Below, in pieces: positions 1 through 62,512 of a stretch of 64,000 nt of DNA (its first letter is position 1; each line of letters opens with the position of its first letter). Below the pieces are notes generated by a model. That model made no database searches. It had not been told where the DNA came from and was given only the letters and a program-made list of their open reading frames with translations. A program made the position numbers and the translations under genes. Where the stretch lies: positions 1-64,000 of the forward strand of contig JANXAC010000008.1 of NCBI GenBank assembly GCA_025061835.1. Reading direction: 5' to 3'. The DNA comes from Spirochaetota bacterium (GTDB lineage: Bacteria > Spirochaetota > Brevinematia > DTOW01).

Positions 1-128
1 TGTTGTCCGCCACCACCTTGTTGCCCTCCGCCTTGTTGCTGTTGTTCCGGCGTCGGACTGCAACCAAAGTAGCCCCACGCCACGAACACAGCTAAAATCA
101 AAATTAGTATTGTTTTGTAAAGCTTCAT
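1..128 (-). CDS. Lipoprotein, N-terminal part only (runs off the window)
   Basis: Only the first 42 codons are in the window. They encode a lipoprotein signal peptide ending in a YFGC lipobox with Cys23, followed by a Pro-Glu-Gln stretch and a Gln/Gly-rich spacer. The start ATG (126-128) follows a strong AAAGGAGG ribosome site. The encoded sequence is nearly the same as the N-terminus of the 815-residue lipoprotein at 342-2789, and the first 77 bases are identical to 2662-2738, so this is a tandem paralogue lying downstream of that gene on the same strand. By analogy the missing part probably holds Ig-like repeats, but this cannot be seen here. Confidence 0.85.
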   Translation of the reverse strand, partial: MKLYKTILILILAVFVAWGYFGCSPTPEQQQQGGGQQGGGGQ

Positions 129-341: not shown

Positions 342-2789
342 TTATGGGTTAAGGACATAATCTATTGATTTGTTAGTGATATCAGATATATATGGACCCC
401 ACGCACCTGCACCTGTTCTTGAAACACCTGATGGGTATATTGAGCGCATACCTTCTTCACCCGCTGTTCCGCCGCTCCTTCCATACAATACATATACATT
501 AGCAACTTGCCCGCTTGACGCACCAGAACCTATGTTTGCGTAACTTACAACAAATGAATACTTATAATCTCCACCACCGATAGATGTCATGGAATGTGAT
601 ACTGAAACCGAAGATGCAGTTCCCACTATTTTGTTAGCATTAGTAGCACCTAATGCTCTACTACCACCTGAACCCGATGAATTCCTAAGCCAACCCCATA
701 TCACAAGGTCTGCGTTGATACCAGCACTGTTTGTAAACCAAAAGTTACCCCAGCCTGTTGTCCAATCTCCACTCCAACCTGTTGCTGTAGGTTGATGTCC
801 TGTTGTCATGTTGGTAATGTCCACAAAGACATACAGGTTGTGGTCGTCTGTAGCAGTGTTGTTAATTATGATGTCAATCGTAAGCTGTCCAGAACCGCTT
901 TTTACATACACATCTTTTATTTGAGAAGCCCAGAAATTATACTCACCAGTGCCGAGGAAGGTTGCATTATTGGTTACCGTATTTGTATTCGTCGTGCTAT
1001 GGTTACCAACAGTATCAACTGAGTATGCTACTATGTTTATTGTAGTTTCTCTCAAGTTCCTCACGAGTCTAGACCAAGAGGTAGTCCCTGTTGCAAGTTG
1101 GAAAGGACCTCCATCTACTGATACATATACCTGAGCTACACCAATGTTGTCTGAAGCCGTTCCTTGTATCAATACCCCACCTGCAGGTAAGTTGTTAGTT
1201 ATGGTAGAGTTGTTAGCCGGAGATGAGATAGAAACTGTCGGCGGTGTTGCATCAACAGTTATGTTGATGGAGCTGGTGGAACTAGTATTGCCAACATTAT
1301 CAACACTATAGACCTGAATAGTGTATGAACCTGATGTTGTAATGTTGAGGTTGGTACTCCAAGAAGAAGTCCCACTCACCTGCCCAAAACCACCACTAGT
1401 CCCTACCCTGAGAAAAACAGCCTGAAGACCTGCACCACCTGTGTCGTTCGCACTCCCACTTACAGTGAAGATACCCGGAACAGTGCTACCGTTAGCCGGA
1501 GATGAGATAGAAACTGTCGGCGGTGTTGCATCAACAGTTATGTTGATGGAGCTGGTGGAACTAGTATTACCAACATTATCAACACTATAGACCTGAATAG
1601 TATATGAACCTGATGTTGTAATGTTGAGGTTGGTACTCCAAGAAGAAGTCCCACTCACCTGCCCAAAACCACCACTAGTCCCTACTCTAAGGTATACTGC
1701 CTTAAGTCCTGAGACTCCTGTATCGTTTGCTGTTCCGCTTACAGAGAAGGATGCCGGGACTATATCATTATCTGATGGTGAGGAGATTGCTATTGAGGGG
1801 GGGTTATTATCAACAACAATTATGATTTGTTGTGTTGAACTTGACATTCCAGCGGCGTTTGTTGCGAATACTTGGACAATGTTTGTCCCTGAAGTTAAGG
1901 TTAAAGAAGGAGTGCTCCAAGAGCTAGTTCCTGATGCTATTGAGAAGATCCCAGTAGTTCCTAATCTGTAGAACACAGTAGCAGTGTTTAGAGCAGTTCC
2001 GCTTACTGCGAGTGAGGTAACATTTGTAAGCACGATTGAGCTATTCGTACCAGGAGACCCAATTTCAACGACAGGGAAATTAATATCAACGGTTATGTTG
2101 ATGGAGTTGGTGGAACTAACATTACCTGCGTTATCTTCTGCATAGACCTGGATAGTGTATAAGCCTGATGTTGTAATGTTGAGGTTGGTACTCCAAGAAG
2201 AAGTTCCGCTTACCTGCCCGAAAGCACCACTAGTCCCTACTCTCAAATACACCGCCTTAAGACCTGTTCCAGCATCATTTGCCGTTCCACTTACTGAGAA
2301 GCCTGAAGGAACAGTACTATTGTTTGCTGGTGAAGAAATGGTCACAGTTGGTTTTGTTGCGTCAATGACAAATGTAACTGATTGTGTGACACTAGTATTG
2401 TTGGCATTATCAACAGCATACGCCTGGATAGTGTATGAACCGTCTGATAGAGTTATGTTAGTACTCCAGTTGGTAGTTCCTGTTACTTTGTAGAAACTAC
2501 CAGAAGTTCCTACTCTAATAAACACTTCTTTAACACCTGTGTTACCACTACCGTTGGTATCACTTGCTGTTCCAGATACTGTGATGTTAGAGGTATTGTT
2601 CGTAGAGTTGTTTGCTGGAGAGGTGATGGTTATTGTTGGGCGGTTAGTGTCTTGTATTTGCTGTTGTCCGCCACCACCTTGTTGCCCTCCGCCTTGTTGC
2701 TGTTGTTCCGGCGTCGGACTGCAACCAAAGTAGCCCCATACAACAAATAGGGCTAAAGTCAAAATTAGTAGGATCTTGTAAAATCTCAT
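342..2789 (-). CDS. Surface lipoprotein with tandem Ig-like domains
   Basis: This 815-residue protein is probably anchored by a lipid on Cys23 (lipobox YFGC after a hydrophobic signal). A Gln/Gly-rich spacer (about 29-45) leads into roughly six repeats of about 90 residues (about 48-600). Each repeat has the pattern of cadherin/Big-type Ig-like domains: a start like SSPANNSTV, a central SGTAND turn and a GTSSWSTNLN strand. Residues from about 605 to the end form a different all-beta, Trp-rich domain that loosely recalls glucodextranase-C or DOMON-like sugar-binding folds; that likeness is weak. The start has a good GGAGG site. The surface amylase at 44701-49176 has related Ig repeats, so a role in carbohydrate binding or adhesion is a guess. 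Confidence 0.9.
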   Translation of the reverse strand: MRFYKILLILTLALFVVWGYFGCSPTPEQQQQGGGQQGGGGQQQIQDTNRPTITITSPANNSTNNTSNITVSGTASDTNGSGNTGVKEVFIRVGTSGSFYKVTGTTNWSTNITLSDGSYTIQAYAVDNANNTSVTQSVTFVIDATKPTVTISSPANNSTVPSGFSVSGTANDAGTGLKAVYLRVGTSGAFGQVSGTSSWSTNLNITTSGLYTIQVYAEDNAGNVSSTNSINITVDINFPVVEIGSPGTNSSIVLTNVTSLAVSGTALNTATVFYRLGTTGIFSIASGTSSWSTPSLTLTSGTNIVQVFATNAAGMSSSTQQIIIVVDNNPPSIAISSPSDNDIVPASFSVSGTANDTGVSGLKAVYLRVGTSGGFGQVSGTSSWSTNLNITTSGSYTIQVYSVDNVGNTSSTSSINITVDATPPTVSISSPANGSTVPGIFTVSGSANDTGGAGLQAVFLRVGTSGGFGQVSGTSSWSTNLNITTSGSYTIQVYSVDNVGNTSSTSSINITVDATPPTVSISSPANNSTITNNLPAGGVLIQGTASDNIGVAQVYVSVDGGPFQLATGTTSWSRLVRNLRETTINIVAYSVDTVGNHSTTNTNTVTNNATFLGTGEYNFWASQIKDVYVKSGSGQLTIDIIINNTATDDHNLYVFVDITNMTTGHQPTATGWSGDWTTGWGNFWFTNSAGINADLVIWGWLRNSSGSGGSRALGATNANKIVGTASSVSVSHSMTSIGGGDYKYSFVVSYANIGSGASSGQVANVYVLYGRSGGTAGEEGMRSIYPSGVSRTGAGAWGPYISDITNKSIDYVLNP
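1212..1406 (-). repeat. 195-bp internal repeat, first copy (second at 1491-1685)
   Basis: Bases 1212-1406 and 1491-1685 differ at only two positions by my comparison, with a period of 279 bp (93 codons). They encode neighbouring Ig-like domains of the lipoprotein. Such near-identity at DNA level points to recent duplication or ongoing homogenisation, since the other repeats of the gene have diverged more. Confidence 0.9.
1491..1685 (-). repeat. 195-bp internal repeat, second copy
   Basis: Second copy of the unit at 1212-1406; two mismatches in 195 bases. The pair could recombine and change the number of Ig-like domains in steps of 93 residues. Confidence 0.9.
2662..2738 (-). repeat. 77-bp exact repeat of window bases 1-77
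   Basis: The stretch encoding the end of the signal peptide and the Gln/Gly-rich spacer is identical, base for base, to positions 1-77 at the start of the neighbouring lipoprotein. The bases upstream of the match (coding the first half of the signal peptide) differ, so the identity is local, as expected from gene conversion or a recent tandem duplication. Confidence 0.9.
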
Positions 2790-5418: not shown

Positions 5419-5448
5419 TTGAATCCGAAGAAAAATATTTTTGATAAT
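5419..5448 (+). promoter_or_regulatory. Promoter of the macrodomain gene, start-proximal
   Basis: TTGAAT (5419-5424) and GATAAT (5443-5448) are separated by 18 bp. The -10 box ends 7 bases before the ATG at 5456, so transcription should start at or next to the start codon. There is no Shine-Dalgarno sequence in the gap. This argues for the ATG at 5456 and against the in-frame TTG at 5441, which would lie upstream of the transcription start. Confidence 0.55.
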
Positions 5449-5455
5449 AACGGAT

Positions 5456-6001
5456 ATGGAGAGAAGGTTTCTGAATGGTCTTGTGCTTGTAAAGGTTGGT
5501 GATATCACTGAAGAGGAAGTTGATGCGATAGTGAATGCTGCTAATTCTTCACTTATGGGAGGAGGTGGTGTTGATGGTGCTATACACAGAAAGGGAGGTC
5601 CTAAAATACTTGAGGAATGCAAGGTGATAAGACAAACCCAATACCCAAACGGTCTCCCAACAGGCGAAGCAGTCGCAACAACAGCAGGAAATCTTAAAGC
5701 AAAGTATGTTATACATACCGTAGGACCTGTATGGTATGGCGGTAATAGCAACGAAGAGAAACTATTAGAAAATGCTTACAGAAACAGTCTCTCTCTAGCC
5801 GAGAAAATGAATTGCGAAACTATATCGTTCCCCGCTATATCAACAGGTGTCTATGGATATCCCAAAGAAGAAGCAGCAAAGGTAGTGTGTAGAGTCTTGA
5901 AAGATTACTCAAAAAACCCTAAATTAAAGGAGATAAGGTTAGTCTTCTTCTCAAGTCAAGACTACGAGATATTCGTCAAGGTAGCAAATAAAGAGTTGTA
6001 G
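5456..6001 (+). CDS. Macrodomain protein (ADP-ribose / O-acetyl-ADP-ribose hydrolase type)
   Basis: A single macrodomain of 181 residues. The family signatures are clear: the GDIT strand, [18 protein letters not shown] that binds ADP-ribose, and the phosphate-binding loop ISTGVYGYP. Proteins of this YmdB-like group remove ADP-ribose from proteins or hydrolyse O-acetyl-ADP-ribose. The ATG at 5456 is preferred over an upstream in-frame TTG on promoter grounds. The next gene starts one base after the stop codon, so the two form an operon. No ADP-ribosyltransferase partner is seen nearby. Confidence 0.92.
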
Positions 6002-44700: not shown

Positions 44701-47700
44701 CTACTTTTTACCCCTTATAATTATATTAGTGAATGCAATATTTGCTTTGTAGTCCTGTCCTCCGTTGTTATCCCAAGTTCCACTTCCATTATTAAAGGCT
44801 ACAGCGTAGTTATTACCAACGACACTTATGGTCTTACTCCACCAACCACCTCCTTCATTTACCATATCCTCACCTGGAGCAGTAGTCCAAGTACTACCAT
44901 TATTGTAGTGTATCTTGACTGTAGTCCAGTCAGGTCTGTAGTATCTAACTCTAACACTAACAGGGGCGTTGCCTGTGTATAAAGCTCCAACATTAACTAT
45001 TCTGTTGCTTACATGTATCAGATTACCATAAGATATTTTTGAGATATAATCTCTATTCAAGTTGTTGTCCCATTGAGAGCCATTGTTGAAGACAAAATCA
45101 AAAGTTTCAGAAGTTCCGTTTATATTTCTACTCCACCAACCATTTCCTTCACTAGTCATTGATTCACCCGGAGAAGTAGTCCAACTACCACTGATATTGT
45201 GATGGATATTCACACTACTCCAACTGTTGTTAAAATACTTGACTGTTATTCCGGTGGATGGAATATTTGTAATTGTAAATGGTATAGCATTAGTAGAACT
45301 TGTATTGTTTGAAACATCTCTTGCGAATACCCTTAACAGATTAGTCGTATTTATTGAAAGATTAGTTGTATAGTTCCAAGTTGTTGTTCCTGAAGCCAAG
45401 ACAAAAGGAGATCCATTTATAGATATAAACACTTCTTTTACGCCACTCCTATCATCCGAGGCACTACCGTAAATTGTTATGTTAGTCTGGTTCATTATCA
45501 TCTGATTGCTTGCTGGATATGACACACTAACAGTCGGTGGAGTTGTATCATTTAAGTTAGGAGAGCCTTGACTAGATGTTAAGCCCCAGTCATAAGTTAT
45601 ATCTACTGATTGACCTCCTACAACTCTGTAATTAGCACCTGGTGTCCAATCTACACCATTCCTTCTGAACTTAAACTCAATATTTCTACCGCTAGGAACC
45701 GAAGTAGAAGTCCAAACCCATATATTTCTACCGCTACTATCAGTACCTTTGTATGTCATTACAGTAGCAGGACCACTATCCCACCAAGTCATACCTGGAA
45801 CTATGTTGTTAGTATCATTAGCACTCGTGGGTGGAGAATAACTACCACAAACTCCAACAAAGTTTGCTCCTCCGACAAAGGATCTTAATACTATCGTAGT
45901 TATTGGCACGCTACCAACATATTTTATGGTATAAGCAAGTGTAGCATCATTAAACTCTATCTGGTAAGGACCCGTAACAGGTGCTTCAAATGTTATAGGA
46001 TCAGTTGAAGTTTCAACAGCATCTCCACTAACTGGTAAGAATGTTCCAACTTCGTTGTTATCACCATAAGTTTTCGTAGTTGAATAGACCGCGTTGAAAT
46101 AAACATTCACATTACCAGTTGATGTAACATTTATAGTTCCTCTCCATAGATTTCCTATAACTCTATTCATATTCGTTGAGTATGTGCCAGATATTGATAC
46201 ACTATTAGCAGGGTCTGGATAACTATAGACTAATACTACAAAACTATTACCCGAAACATTAACATTATAACTACCAGAGCTAACTGTTATGTTATTAGTT
46301 GAAATTGAGTCACCTGATGGCGTTAAAAGTCTATAATTACCATTTGGAAGAGATAGGTTGTAGTTCGCATTACCATCCCCTTTGTTTATAACAACATAAG
46401 ATACTGAACTAACATACTCTCTTTTGAATACTGCGAGATTTCCTTGTAAATGAATATTTACTTGAGATCCTCTCCTCAGAGATATTTCCGCCTCTCTTAA
46501 CCTATTTAACATTCTTAGATGTCTATATATAGGATAGTTATTTGGGTTTGATAGTAACCTATTTATCCTATCCTGACCAACAAACTTTCTATTTTTTGGC
46601 TCACCATCGCCGTAATCATTTATATTATCCCCAGTTCCCTCAAACTCTGTTCCATAATAAACAATAGGAATACCTCTCGCTAAATAGTACCAGTTAAGGG
46701 CATTTCTCCACATTCTAACCATAGAATTGTTATCCGCATATCCTCCGGGAAATCTTGGCTTATCGTGGTTATCAACGAATGTTCCCAGGAATGTTGGGTC
46801 AATACCTCCACTGTAATCACTAGCCATAATGTTAGCCATCTGTTCAAAACCAGTGCTACCAGCAAATATTCCTTTTGCTTGACCTGGAAAATCCATACAA
46901 GAGCCGTGTAGGTCAAGCAACGACAGAACACCTCTTGATGAAAACTTTGAATAACTCAATGCCTCTTGCCTTGTAGCAACCCATGCTTCACCTACAATCC
47001 AGAACCAAGGCTTGTTTTTAGTCGTCGCGGCATACTCCCACATAACATCAGCAAAGAGTCCCCAGAACTGCTTTCTCATATACGCAACTGTATCAAGCCT
47101 AAACCCATCAACTCCCCTGTCAATAAACTTCTTATAAACATTGAAAATGTGTTGTCGCGTTCTTGGATCACACTCATTGAAGTCAAGCAGATCAAGAAGT
47201 TTGTAATCACCTCTATAATTAAAGAAACCTGGATTATTCTCCCATATACCTTCTACATTAGGATTATTTTTATATGGGTCTGTAGTTGGATTATACTCCC
47301 ACCACTGTCCATCAAACTTAACCTTCAGCCTATCATTAAACCACTTAACACTTGGATGCGCATCACCACCATGAGCGTGGTTAGGAACAATGTCAAGTAT
47401 TATTTTTATACCTCTATTGTGTGCTTCTCTTATTAGGTCATCAAATGTTGCACCCGGAGATTCTAAATGTGGATCAATACTATCAAAATCATATCCCCAG
47501 TATCCATGATAACCAGCTGCGTCGTAGGTTTGACCACTGTTGACATATCTTCCTGGTGGTTGCTTTACAACAGGAGTAATCCAAATAGCATTGAAGCCCA
47601 TATTCTTTAAGTAATCAAGGTTATTTATAAGTCCCCTGAAATCACCACCGTTATAATACCTCAAAGCATCCGAACTATCATTATTAGGAGCTCTATACTC

Positions 47701-49176
47701 ATCACCATAAATATTGTTATTACCGGAAAATCCATCAACAAACCTATCAGTCATAACAAAATAGACTCGCCAATCTCTTGGGTCTTCAGGACCATCACCG
47801 GGAAACGATATTCCTCCACCCCCACCGCCAGAACCACCACCGGAGCCACCTCCGCCTCCACCAGAACCGCCACCGGAGCCACCTCCACTGCCTCCGCCAG
47901 ACCCCTGAACGATAACTATTACATTGACTTCATTGAAATTGCCCGCATTATCTATAGCCTTTGCGAATATAGTGTTAGTCCCGTTGGTTAAACCAACTTG
48001 CTTACTCCAAGTATCCTTACCTATAGCATCCTCATAATTTCCATTATTGACTTTTACTTGAACTACGCTAATACCACTTACATTATCACTAGCAGTTCCA
48101 TTAACAACAATCGTTGTTTGAGTTATTGTTGAGGTGTTAGCAGGACCTGTTATTGAGACAGTAGGTTTAGTATAGTCAATACCAACCACTATTGAAGCCT
48201 CCCCTTCTCTATTGATATTATCTCTAACCTTCGCCCTTATAACTACATTACTACTCTGAATATTAACTACTCTCTGAAACATCCAAGAAGAGGATGGCGT
48301 TGGTATTTCTTCCCAAGATGTATTGTCTATGTTAACAAATATCTTACCTATTGAAGCAGAGGAAGAAACACTAGCAGTTCCCCTTATAACCAAGTTACTA
48401 GAACTTATCCAAATACCATTCTGTGGTTCAGATATGCTTATAACCGGTATATTAATATCAACTATTAACGTAATTTCTCTAATCTCACTTATTTTACCTA
48501 CTACGTCTTTAGAGTAGACTCTTATGGTGTTAGTAGTGTTATTAGCAAAAATTAGATTGGTGACTAGATTTCTTGTATCTGATATTTTGGTATAAACATT
48601 GGTGTTTATAGCGATGAATATACCATCCACAGTAGTATCATCAGAAGCAAGAATACTCAATTGGAAATTAGTGCTAACTATTCTATCAGATGCACTTTCA
48701 AAACCTAAAATACTTAATGTCGGATTCTGCGTATCAACTATAACATTTAAAGTATTAGTTGAACTAACTTTACCACTACTATCTTTAGCAAAAACCCTTA
48801 CCTGGTTAGTCCCTCCAGATGTAAATAACAAAACCTTTGAAAATGAAGCATATACAAAACCCTGAGGATTTCTAGTTATCTCAAACTCACTAGCATCTAT
48901 GGTTACACTACCAGAAGATGTTAATATAATAACGCTGTCTATACTCTTATCATCAACAACAAAACCAAATAGTGAAAAAGTTTGACTAACTGCTTGATAA
49001 TCCCTTGGATTTATAATTTGAACTGAAGGGGGTCTATCATCGGATCTCTCTGAAGGCTGTGAAGTTTGTTGTCCTCCTAGTAGATTTTCAACTATAGTAG
49101 GTAGTTTCTGACACCCTACATAAGAAAATACTGAAATAAAGATCAACACCAGAATTATAACTATTCTACTCTTCAT
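44701..49176 (-). CDS. Surface alpha-amylase lipoprotein with Ig repeats and two CBM25 modules
   Basis: 1491 residues. A lipoprotein signal ends in the lipobox SYVGC (Cys22). Four Ig-like repeats (about 45-425) lead to a Gly/Ser linker (about 425-453), and a GH13 catalytic domain (about 464-900) with a C-terminal beta domain. The catalytic residues are Asp695 (GFRLDT), Glu730 (VGEAW) and Asp805 (FVDNHD); region I is DIVPNH. Further beta-sandwiches (about 1000-1210), one more Ig repeat and two starch-binding modules of CBM25 type (about 1310-1400 and 1405-1491, each with W.TTxPGE and GWWS) end the protein. It should degrade starch at the cell surface, feeding the cytoplasmic GH13 and MalQ enzymes. 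Confidence 0.93.
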   Translation of the reverse strand: MKSRIVIILVLIFISVFSYVGCQKLPTIVENLLGGQQTSQPSERSDDRPPSVQIINPRDYQAVSQTFSLFGFVVDDKSIDSVIILTSSGSVTIDASEFEITRNPQGFVYASFSKVLLFTSGGTNQVRVFAKDSSGKVSSTNTLNVIVDTQNPTLSILGFESASDRIVSTNFQLSILASDDTTVDGIFIAINTNVYTKISDTRNLVTNLIFANNTTNTIRVYSKDVVGKISEIREITLIVDINIPVISISEPQNGIWISSSNLVIRGTASVSSSASIGKIFVNIDNTSWEEIPTPSSSWMFQRVVNIQSSNVVIRAKVRDNINREGEASIVVGIDYTKPTVSITGPANTSTITQTTIVVNGTASDNVSGISVVQVKVNNGNYEDAIGKDTWSKQVGLTNGTNTIFAKAIDNAGNFNEVNVIVIVQGSGGGSGGGSGGGSGGGGGGSGGGSGGGGGGISFPGDGPEDPRDWRVYFVMTDRFVDGFSGNNNIYGDEYRAPNNDSSDALRYYNGGDFRGLINNLDYLKNMGFNAIWITPVVKQPPGRYVNSGQTYDAAGYHGYWGYDFDSIDPHLESPGATFDDLIREAHNRGIKIILDIVPNHAHGGDAHPSVKWFNDRLKVKFDGQWWEYNPTTDPYKNNPNVEGIWENNPGFFNYRGDYKLLDLLDFNECDPRTRQHIFNVYKKFIDRGVDGFRLDTVAYMRKQFWGLFADVMWEYAATTKNKPWFWIVGEAWVATRQEALSYSKFSSRGVLSLLDLHGSCMDFPGQAKGIFAGSTGFEQMANIMASDYSGGIDPTFLGTFVDNHDKPRFPGGYADNNSMVRMWRNALNWYYLARGIPIVYYGTEFEGTGDNINDYGDGEPKNRKFVGQDRINRLLSNPNNYPIYRHLRMLNRLREAEISLRRGSQVNIHLQGNLAVFKREYVSSVSYVVINKGDGNANYNLSLPNGNYRLLTPSGDSISTNNITVSSGSYNVNVSGNSFVVLVYSYPDPANSVSISGTYSTNMNRVIGNLWRGTINVTSTGNVNVYFNAVYSTTKTYGDNNEVGTFLPVSGDAVETSTDPITFEAPVTGPYQIEFNDATLAYTIKYVGSVPITTIVLRSFVGGANFVGVCGSYSPPTSANDTNNIVPGMTWWDSGPATVMTYKGTDSSGRNIWVWTSTSVPSGRNIEFKFRRNGVDWTPGANYRVVGGQSVDITYDWGLTSSQGSPNLNDTTPPTVSVSYPASNQMIMNQTNITIYGSASDDRSGVKEVFISINGSPFVLASGTTTWNYTTNLSINTTNLLRVFARDVSNNTSSTNAIPFTITNIPSTGITVKYFNNSWSSVNIHHNISGSWTTSPGESMTSEGNGWWSRNINGTSETFDFVFNNGSQWDNNLNRDYISKISYGNLIHVSNRIVNVGALYTGNAPVSVRVRYYRPDWTTVKIHYNNGSTWTTAPGEDMVNEGGGWWSKTISVVGNNYAVAFNNGSGTWDNNGGQDYKANIAFTNIIIRGKK

Positions 49177-61741: not shown

Positions 61742-62512
61742 TTAAGGATATATTACCTTTATTCCTTTCTTTTCTGCTAGTTTTTTTGCATCTTCATAGA
61801 TGAAGTATGTTACTATTCTCTTCTCACTAACTTTTCTTCCTACCTCTTGTTCATACACTCTTACAGCTTCTTCAAACCTCTCAACCTCAGAAACACTACA
61901 ACTTGACTTAACCTCAACAACCATCTCAACACCATCCTTAACTACTATATCTATCTCATACTCCCTTTTTTCCTCAAAGTCTCCAATCTTTACAACAGCA
62001 CTACTCTTCCATTTTTTGACCTCACCACCCCAACTACTCACGAGATCTTCTGCAAACTTCGTGATAGCTTTTTCCGAGCTCAAACCCCACCTGCCACCTA
62101 TTGCCTCAAGTTTCCTATCAAGCCTTCCTACCGACTCATCTATCTTCCTGTCAAGCCTCTCTACCTCCCTATCTATCTTCCTATCAATCTCATCTTTAAC
62201 GTTAAGAACAAACTTCTTAAGGTCTTCTGACTGCTTCTCAAGAGCACTGTAAAACTCTTTTCTTAACTCCTCCGACTGCTTCTCAAGAGCACTGTAAAAC
62301 TCTTTTCTTAACTCCTCGGACTGCTTCTCAAGAGCACTGTAAAACTCTCTTTTTAGGTCTTGTGAATACTTCACTAGTGCTTCATCAAAGTAAGTCTTTG
62401 TTAAAAGCTCATCCCCATACAACTTCAGTATCAATTTATGAATTTCAAAAGCGAAATCCTTATCTGTTCTTATTATGCTCAGTAATCTCTCTTTGAGTTC
62501 CGTTTCTGTCAT
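61742..62512 (-). CDS. DUF3782-like protein with a PD-(D/E)XK nuclease-like domain
   Basis: 256 residues from the ATG at 62512; an upstream TTG at 62548 coincides with the -35 box and is unlikely. A helical N-terminus is followed by a coiled coil that contains a 15-residue repeat (EFYSALEKQSEELRK, nearly three copies) and a heptad-rich Arg/Asp stretch (about 105-135). The C-terminal 115 residues look like a PD-(D/E)XK nuclease fold: a Glu in KAITKFAEDLV, EIDIVVKDG and VVEVKSS. Such proteins are common in thermophiles and often multiply. Activity is not established. Confidence 0.8.
   Translation of the reverse strand: MTETELKERLLSIIRTDKDFAFEIHKLILKLYGDELLTKTYFDEALVKYSQDLKREFYSALEKQSEELRKEFYSALEKQSEELRKEFYSALEKQSEDLKKFVLNVKDEIDRKIDREVERLDRKIDESVGRLDRKLEAIGGRWGLSSEKAITKFAEDLVSSWGGEVKKWKSSAVVKIGDFEEKREYEIDIVVKDGVEMVVEVKSSCSVSEVERFEEAVRVYEQEVGRKVSEKRIVTYFIYEDAKKLAEKKGIKVIYP
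62229..62350 (-). repeat. 45-bp tandem repeat, about 2.7 copies
   Basis: Copies start at 62229, 62274 and 62319. The first two differ by one or two bases; the third diverges after about 30. They encode the coiled-coil repeat of the DUF3782-like protein. The near-identity suggests slippage, and the number of units may vary between strains. Confidence 0.9.

Follow-up and report, generated by a model that had tools for sequence, protein, structure and literature searches.

Concerted evolution among the stalk units of a putative Ig-like surface lipoprotein gene in a Spirochaetota bacterium

Introduction

The ligA and ligB genes of Leptospira are tandem genes for surface proteins with Ig-like domains. 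Their 5' parts are nearly identical from position -266 to +1890, for which gene conversion has been proposed; the sections of the source concerned with these genes name the Lig domains as Big_2 and describe them as not being repeats (PMC7821625). A second class of reference are the Periscope Proteins, which, according to the parts of the reports available to us, combine a stalk of alike folded repeats with a functional domain at one end, whereby the likeness of the repeats at the DNA level is thought to drive changes in unit number (PMC8201768, PMC9704523). Here, we describe a gene (gene A) and the beginning of a tandem neighbour (gene B) in a window of 64,000 nucleotides, the whole stretch of DNA that was analysed, from a spirochaete genome (G000) of 55 contigs. 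The event at this locus is of an ordinary kind in an uncharted genome, yet the contrast between exchanging units and marker units is unusually clear. As a clean natural example, one gene here unites Ig domains that exchange with others that do not, and the markers reveal which units exchange.

Results

Gene A encodes a putative lipid-anchored Ig stalk with a C-terminal head

Gene A and its parts are arranged as follows.

342..2789, minus strand: gene A, 815 aa, with leader, Gln/Gly linker, six Ig-like units and C-terminal head (open reading frame; Pfam Big_7, E 1.1e-33; lipobox by eye)
2649..2789, minus strand: leader with cysteine and Gln/Gly linker
2361..2648, minus strand: Ig-like unit A1, 96 aa
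2085..2360, minus strand: Ig-like unit A2, 92 aa, placed by the unit tree in one group with A4 and A5
1809..2084, minus strand: Ig-like unit A3, 92 aa, a marker unit and orthologue of sister-species unit G4 (support 99.4/100)
1530..1808, minus strand: Ig-like unit A4, 93 aa, homogenised with A5 (null models, tree)
1251..1529, minus strand: Ig-like unit A5, 93 aa, homogenised with A4 (null models, tree)
966..1250, minus strand: Ig-like unit A6, 95 aa, a marker unit and orthologue of sister-species unit G7 (support 99.8/100)
345..965, minus strand: C-terminal head, 207 residues (609-815), with no named family in profile and structure searches

The leader is hydrophobic and carries a cysteine at its end, which was recognized as a lipobox by eye. 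From this anatomy, the product is predicted to be a lipid-anchored cell-surface protein with an acylated N-terminal cysteine, its surface location being read from the leader by eye, and the six-domain Ig stalk would hold the C-terminal head away from the membrane. The NCBIfam domain model NF047446 (OmpL47-type) lies above its cut-off on gene A (118.9 vs 40 bits), whereas the equivalog model NF047441 (OmpL47) lies below (124 vs 250 bits). Together with a match to Treponema, this Leptospira-type model points to Spirochaetota. The naming of the Ig units is hazardous, since NCBIfam labels them as OmpL47-type beta-barrel domains and Pfam as Ig-like. Big_2 was absent among the 21 Pfam families that match gene A at E values up to 1.

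A sharply bounded tract is homogenised between units A4 and A5

The sequence-only reading of this DNA had described two 195-bp units differing in two bases. The two differences in 195 bases were confirmed; however, the repeat unit measures 279 bp, and the 195-bp stretch is a sharply bounded tract inside it.

1491..1685, minus strand: homogenised tract, the copy that is read first (2/195 bases differ from the other copy)
1212..1406, minus strand: homogenised tract, the copy that is read second (2/195 bases differ from the other copy)
2164..2204, minus strand: 41 bp of A2 that recur without a mismatch at 1609-1649 and 1330-1370 (exact match)

Compared over their full length, units A4 and A5 have an identity of 81.4% at the DNA level and 80.6% at the protein level (93 residues; own alignment), with 52 mismatches in 279 bases, 50 of which fall within the first 123 bases. 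The edges of the tract are sharp, with 2 mismatches in its 195 bases compared to 31/84 before and 52/84 after it, and it runs 39 bases into the following unit, where it stops abruptly. The tract is composed of exact runs of 78, 32 and 83 bp, has a dS of 0.04 and a pN of 0, and thus shows no amino-acid difference. Synonymous recoding of the same 65 residues (5,000 draws) gave 54 differences on average and 36 at minimum, against the two observed. When the A4/A5 mismatches were permuted, none of 20,000 permutations yielded a 156-base run with at most two mismatches (longest run 83). Chance is excluded for the A4/A5 tract by these controls. For the 41-bp stretch of A2, recoding gave a mean of 12 differences, and in none of 20,000 draws was the number of differences zero.

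The sister-species orthologue homogenises its own units

The orthologue in the sister species (genome G001) is split between two contigs, with the 5' part on C5 and the 3' part on C99, which overlap by 106 exact bases; by arithmetic, C99 starts 6 bases past the end of the homogenised tract. Joined across both contigs, it encodes 902 aa with seven units, compared to six in gene A, whereby this difference in unit number rests on one genome per species, both fragmented assemblies. Synonymous sites of the head are saturated between gene A and the G001 gene (pS 0.74). The within-gene dS values are 0.58 for A4/A5 and 0.46 for G5/G6, and those of the orthologous markers are 1.20 (A6/G7) and 1.41 (A3/G4). 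G5 and G6 are 84.2% identical in protein over 95 residues (own alignment); their run of low mismatch is not extreme when taken alone, as it was matched by 55 of 5,000 permutations.

In the unit tree, for which a single topology is a simplification given that the units recombine, groups within species were recovered for A4 and A5 (97.4/99), for A2 joining these two (98.8/98) and for G5 and G6 (99.8/100), next to the orthologous pairs A3 with G4 (99.4/100) and A6 with G7 (99.8/100). A forced orthologous pairing of A4 and A5 with G5 and G6 was rejected (AU test, p 2e-6). The G001 version thus appears to homogenise its own stalk units independently of gene A. Since A2 resembles A4 and A5 across the marker A3, the exchange must have passed over A3 without displacing it, which favours conversion over plain tandem duplication. 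The pattern is one of intragenic concerted evolution, and its mechanism is best explained by gene conversion.

The shared start of genes A and B is truncated by the contig border

1..128, minus strand: beginning of gene B, truncated by the contig border; window 1-77 equals 2662-2738 (sequence comparison)
2662..2738, minus strand: 77 bases of gene A identical to window 1-77 (exact comparison)

The window and contig C8 have their first base in common, and gene B is therefore truncated to its first 128 bases. The 77 identical bases reported earlier for the two gene starts are exact (1-77 equal 2662-2738), and the match breaks off at base 78; the two genes thus have 77 bases or more in common, as gene B is incomplete. 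Over the 75 shared in-frame bases there are no differences, compared to a mean of 14 and a minimum of 4 in 20,000 synonymous recodings. Within the leader, 15/51 bases differ between the two genes, so that gene B is a sequence distinct from gene A.

The right end of contig C6 and the left ends of C26 and C27 have exactly 77 bases in common, in a comparison of the 80 readable ends out of 110 (the other 30 read N and were left out); the only further exact end-to-end overlap among the readable ends was one of 59 bases between the right ends of C21 and C28. The figure of 77 was most likely set by the assembler k-mer (k = 77), and as this accounts for it, the shared length of genes A and B is to be read as a floor of at least 77 bases rather than as a biological length. 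Two of the exact runs within the gene A tract exceed this probable k of 77, and the unit count of gene A is therefore provisional and may be wrong. More generally, fragmented assemblies cut such genes and thus lead to an understatement of their length and number.

A search with the DNA start of gene B led to just two places, which both lie on C8, and the remainder of the gene was not found. By geometry, the right end of C26 fits either gene B or the second gene of a tandem pair on contig C3, and a protein comparison leaves both assignments.

Other Ig lipoprotein genes and gene neighbourhood

Gene A matches itself exactly over at most 83 bp and the G001 orthologue over at most 74 bp, compared to maxima of 9 to 21 bp in the other eight Ig genes. 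This comparison covered ten genes, namely gene A, the G001 gene, C3 gene 1, C3 gene 2, the genes on C26, C5, C6, C17 and C4, and a GH13 protein gene, with those on C26 and C6 and C3 gene 2 being partial, and with gene B and the Ig places at C3:78462 and C2:95128 left out. By the same measure, long homogenised tracts are absent from the eight other Ig lipoprotein genes of the own genome, three of them partial. Between different genes of the ten, 20 bp in common were found only for gene A and the G001 gene. A second tandem Ig lipoprotein pair is located at L026 4354-10119 (G000 C3), whereby its second gene runs off the contig end. As no exchange was detectable in the C3 pair, tandem placement alone is insufficient.

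The C5 protein (G000 C5, L027 4083-6797) has the same type of stalk together with NosD and Beta_helix Pfam matches. Judged by eye, Ig units also precede beta-helix-like heads at L029, L030 and L028 (G000 C17, C4 and C6). A decayed copy of the C3-type Ig lipoprotein with in-frame stops lies at about L241 3300-4270 (G003 C4) and matches part of the head, too. Within the window, a 1491-aa protein (44701-49176, minus strand) combines Big_7 with a GH13 alpha-amylase domain and CBM26 and has a lipoprotein-like leader by eye.

The neighbours of gene A, a transporter ATPase gene and a GH13 gene, occur in the same order in G001, G003 and G004, and no Ig-stalk gene was found beside them in the flanks read there (10 kb in G003). 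In G000, the PASTA gene that adjoins the sister gene is located on contig C10, and the 8 kb read there contain no Ig-stalk gene. Elsewhere in the window, short tandem arrays with periods of 33 bp and 45 bp are located at 62112-62355, where one minus-strand frame has stops, and a 186-aa frame at 5441-6001 (plus strand) looks by eye like a macro-domain protein.

The C-terminal head is a candidate new domain family

In the sequence-only reading, the C-terminal domain had been described as unrecognised, and this was borne out, as no Pfam family reached its cut-off in the profile search and no solved chain matched; the profile search of solved structures returned a chance-level hit only (E 1.2). 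Among 392 genomes of the same phylum, six gave head matches, which are full-length or nearly so in four (the own genome, G001, G074 and G380). The head alignment omits a 37-residue remnant with a stop from G003 and a weak 64-residue match from G012. In the own genome, the head is present three times. When viral contigs were scanned with the head alignment, 29 pattern matches came up, none of them a relative, and a scan of plasmids gave no relative either. AlphaFold2 on the single head sequence reached a mean pLDDT of 40.3.

The comparison with carbohydrate-binding families that had been suggested for this domain gave no significant match. For Glucodextran_C (PF09985), 111 columns were aligned at an hhalign probability of 3.8 (20 relatives), and for CBM9 (PF06452) the probability was 1.8 (16 of 17 relatives, one dropped for a stop), compared to 1.2 for an Ig control; no named module is supported by this profile comparison. 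The head relative of G074 has one GH13 gene and two CBM48-containing genes as neighbours, and its N-terminal part bears a weak likeness to one CBM48 region (33% over 46 columns, E 0.003). A literature search of titles and abstract openings brought up no description of gene A or of the head that we recognised, which does not exclude that one exists.

The head is regarded as a candidate new domain family. That it binds a glycan, perhaps an alpha-glucan, is our best, though tentative, guess from gene context, which we consider somewhat less than evenly probable. That it is instead a protein adhesin or an enzyme has about an even chance, in line with the lack of a matching carbohydrate-binding family; the genes of starch type beside the relative in G074 and the occurrence of GH13 and CBM26 on the same type of stalk speak against such a role.

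Discussion

With moderate confidence, we favour the reading that gene A encodes a lipid-anchored Ig stalk with a head, whose units A2, A4 and A5 are homogenised mainly by gene conversion. These three units would swap sequence via recombination inside gene A, with A3, A6 and the head staying outside the exchange, and it is because of this intragenic exchange that A2, A4 and A5 would be alike within the species and diverge from the sister species. The same recombination may add or remove units, as the counts of six and seven suggest, and the stalk is therefore predicted to be able to change its length. At least the leader-linker part would in addition have been exchanged between gene A and its tandem neighbour B. 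For antigenic variation, which the sequence-only reading had raised, the results give no support. The idea of recent duplication or gene conversion, put forward from the sequence alone, is strongly supported inside gene A by the tract edges, the dS contrast, the unit tree and the sister species, so that signs of conversion are present there as well as in the truncated A/B stretch; between genes A and B, conversion or duplication is supported only for this stretch of at least 77 bases cut by the contig end.

A rather unlikely alternative to gene conversion is a lineage-specific tandem duplication of units by unequal crossing over, followed by uneven decay. It would explain the different unit numbers of the two species, and a grouping of units within species is expected from it as well. 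However, copying of a single unit predicts identity over the full 279 bp, whereas here it extends over 195 bp with most mismatches in the remainder, and the grouping of A2 with A4 and A5 across the orthologous A3 would need further deletions. That the tract or the tandem neighbour arose by misassembly, from two copies or from two strains, is suggested by the contig end lying exactly at the 77-base shared stretch, with k probably 77, and by the two exact runs longer than 77. We regard it as improbable, though, because gene B differs from gene A at 15/51 leader bases and the independently assembled sister genome has the same kind of within-gene likeness. Still far less probable, and already disfavoured, is that purifying selection on the protein alone maintains the likeness of the units: the pN of 0 in the tract would be in agreement with this, but its dS is 0.04 although synonymous sites are saturated between the species, and recoding never gave fewer than 36 differences where two were observed.

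Beyond homogenisation by gene conversion, a wider scenario may be imagined, in which conversion in one lipoprotein lineage is restricted to a small set of exchanging units next to fixed marker domains, in which sequence-directed local recombination tunes stalk length in these genes, repeatedly in the two species and without affecting the other Ig paralogues, and in which the heads form a new surface glycan-binding family across distant members of the phylum. As a whole, we consider this scenario unlikely.

Comparison with known systems

Genes A and B may correspond to the ligA/ligB arrangement, as they lie in tandem and are identical near the 5' end, over 77 bases or more in the part of gene B that the contig retains. 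In contrast to ligA and ligB, the exchange in gene A would take place mainly between units of one gene, and Big_2 is not among its families. With OmpL47-type proteins, gene A shares the domain model NF047446; unlike in OmpL47 itself, the equivalog model fails, and Pfam assigns these stretches to Ig families. With the Periscope Proteins, as far as the cited sections characterise them, gene A has in common a stalk of alike repeats and a head at one end, whereby the surface rod is predicted from anatomy. Its anchor is N-terminal and its head C-terminal. Compared to what those sections describe, only A4/A5 (and A2/A5) come near 80% protein identity, and the repeat identity of gene A, at 80.6% in our own alignment rather than in the authors' program, barely reaches the value given there for Periscope repeats. 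Taken together, gene A likely represents, in its mode, a further case of the kind covered by ligA/ligB and the Periscope Proteins.
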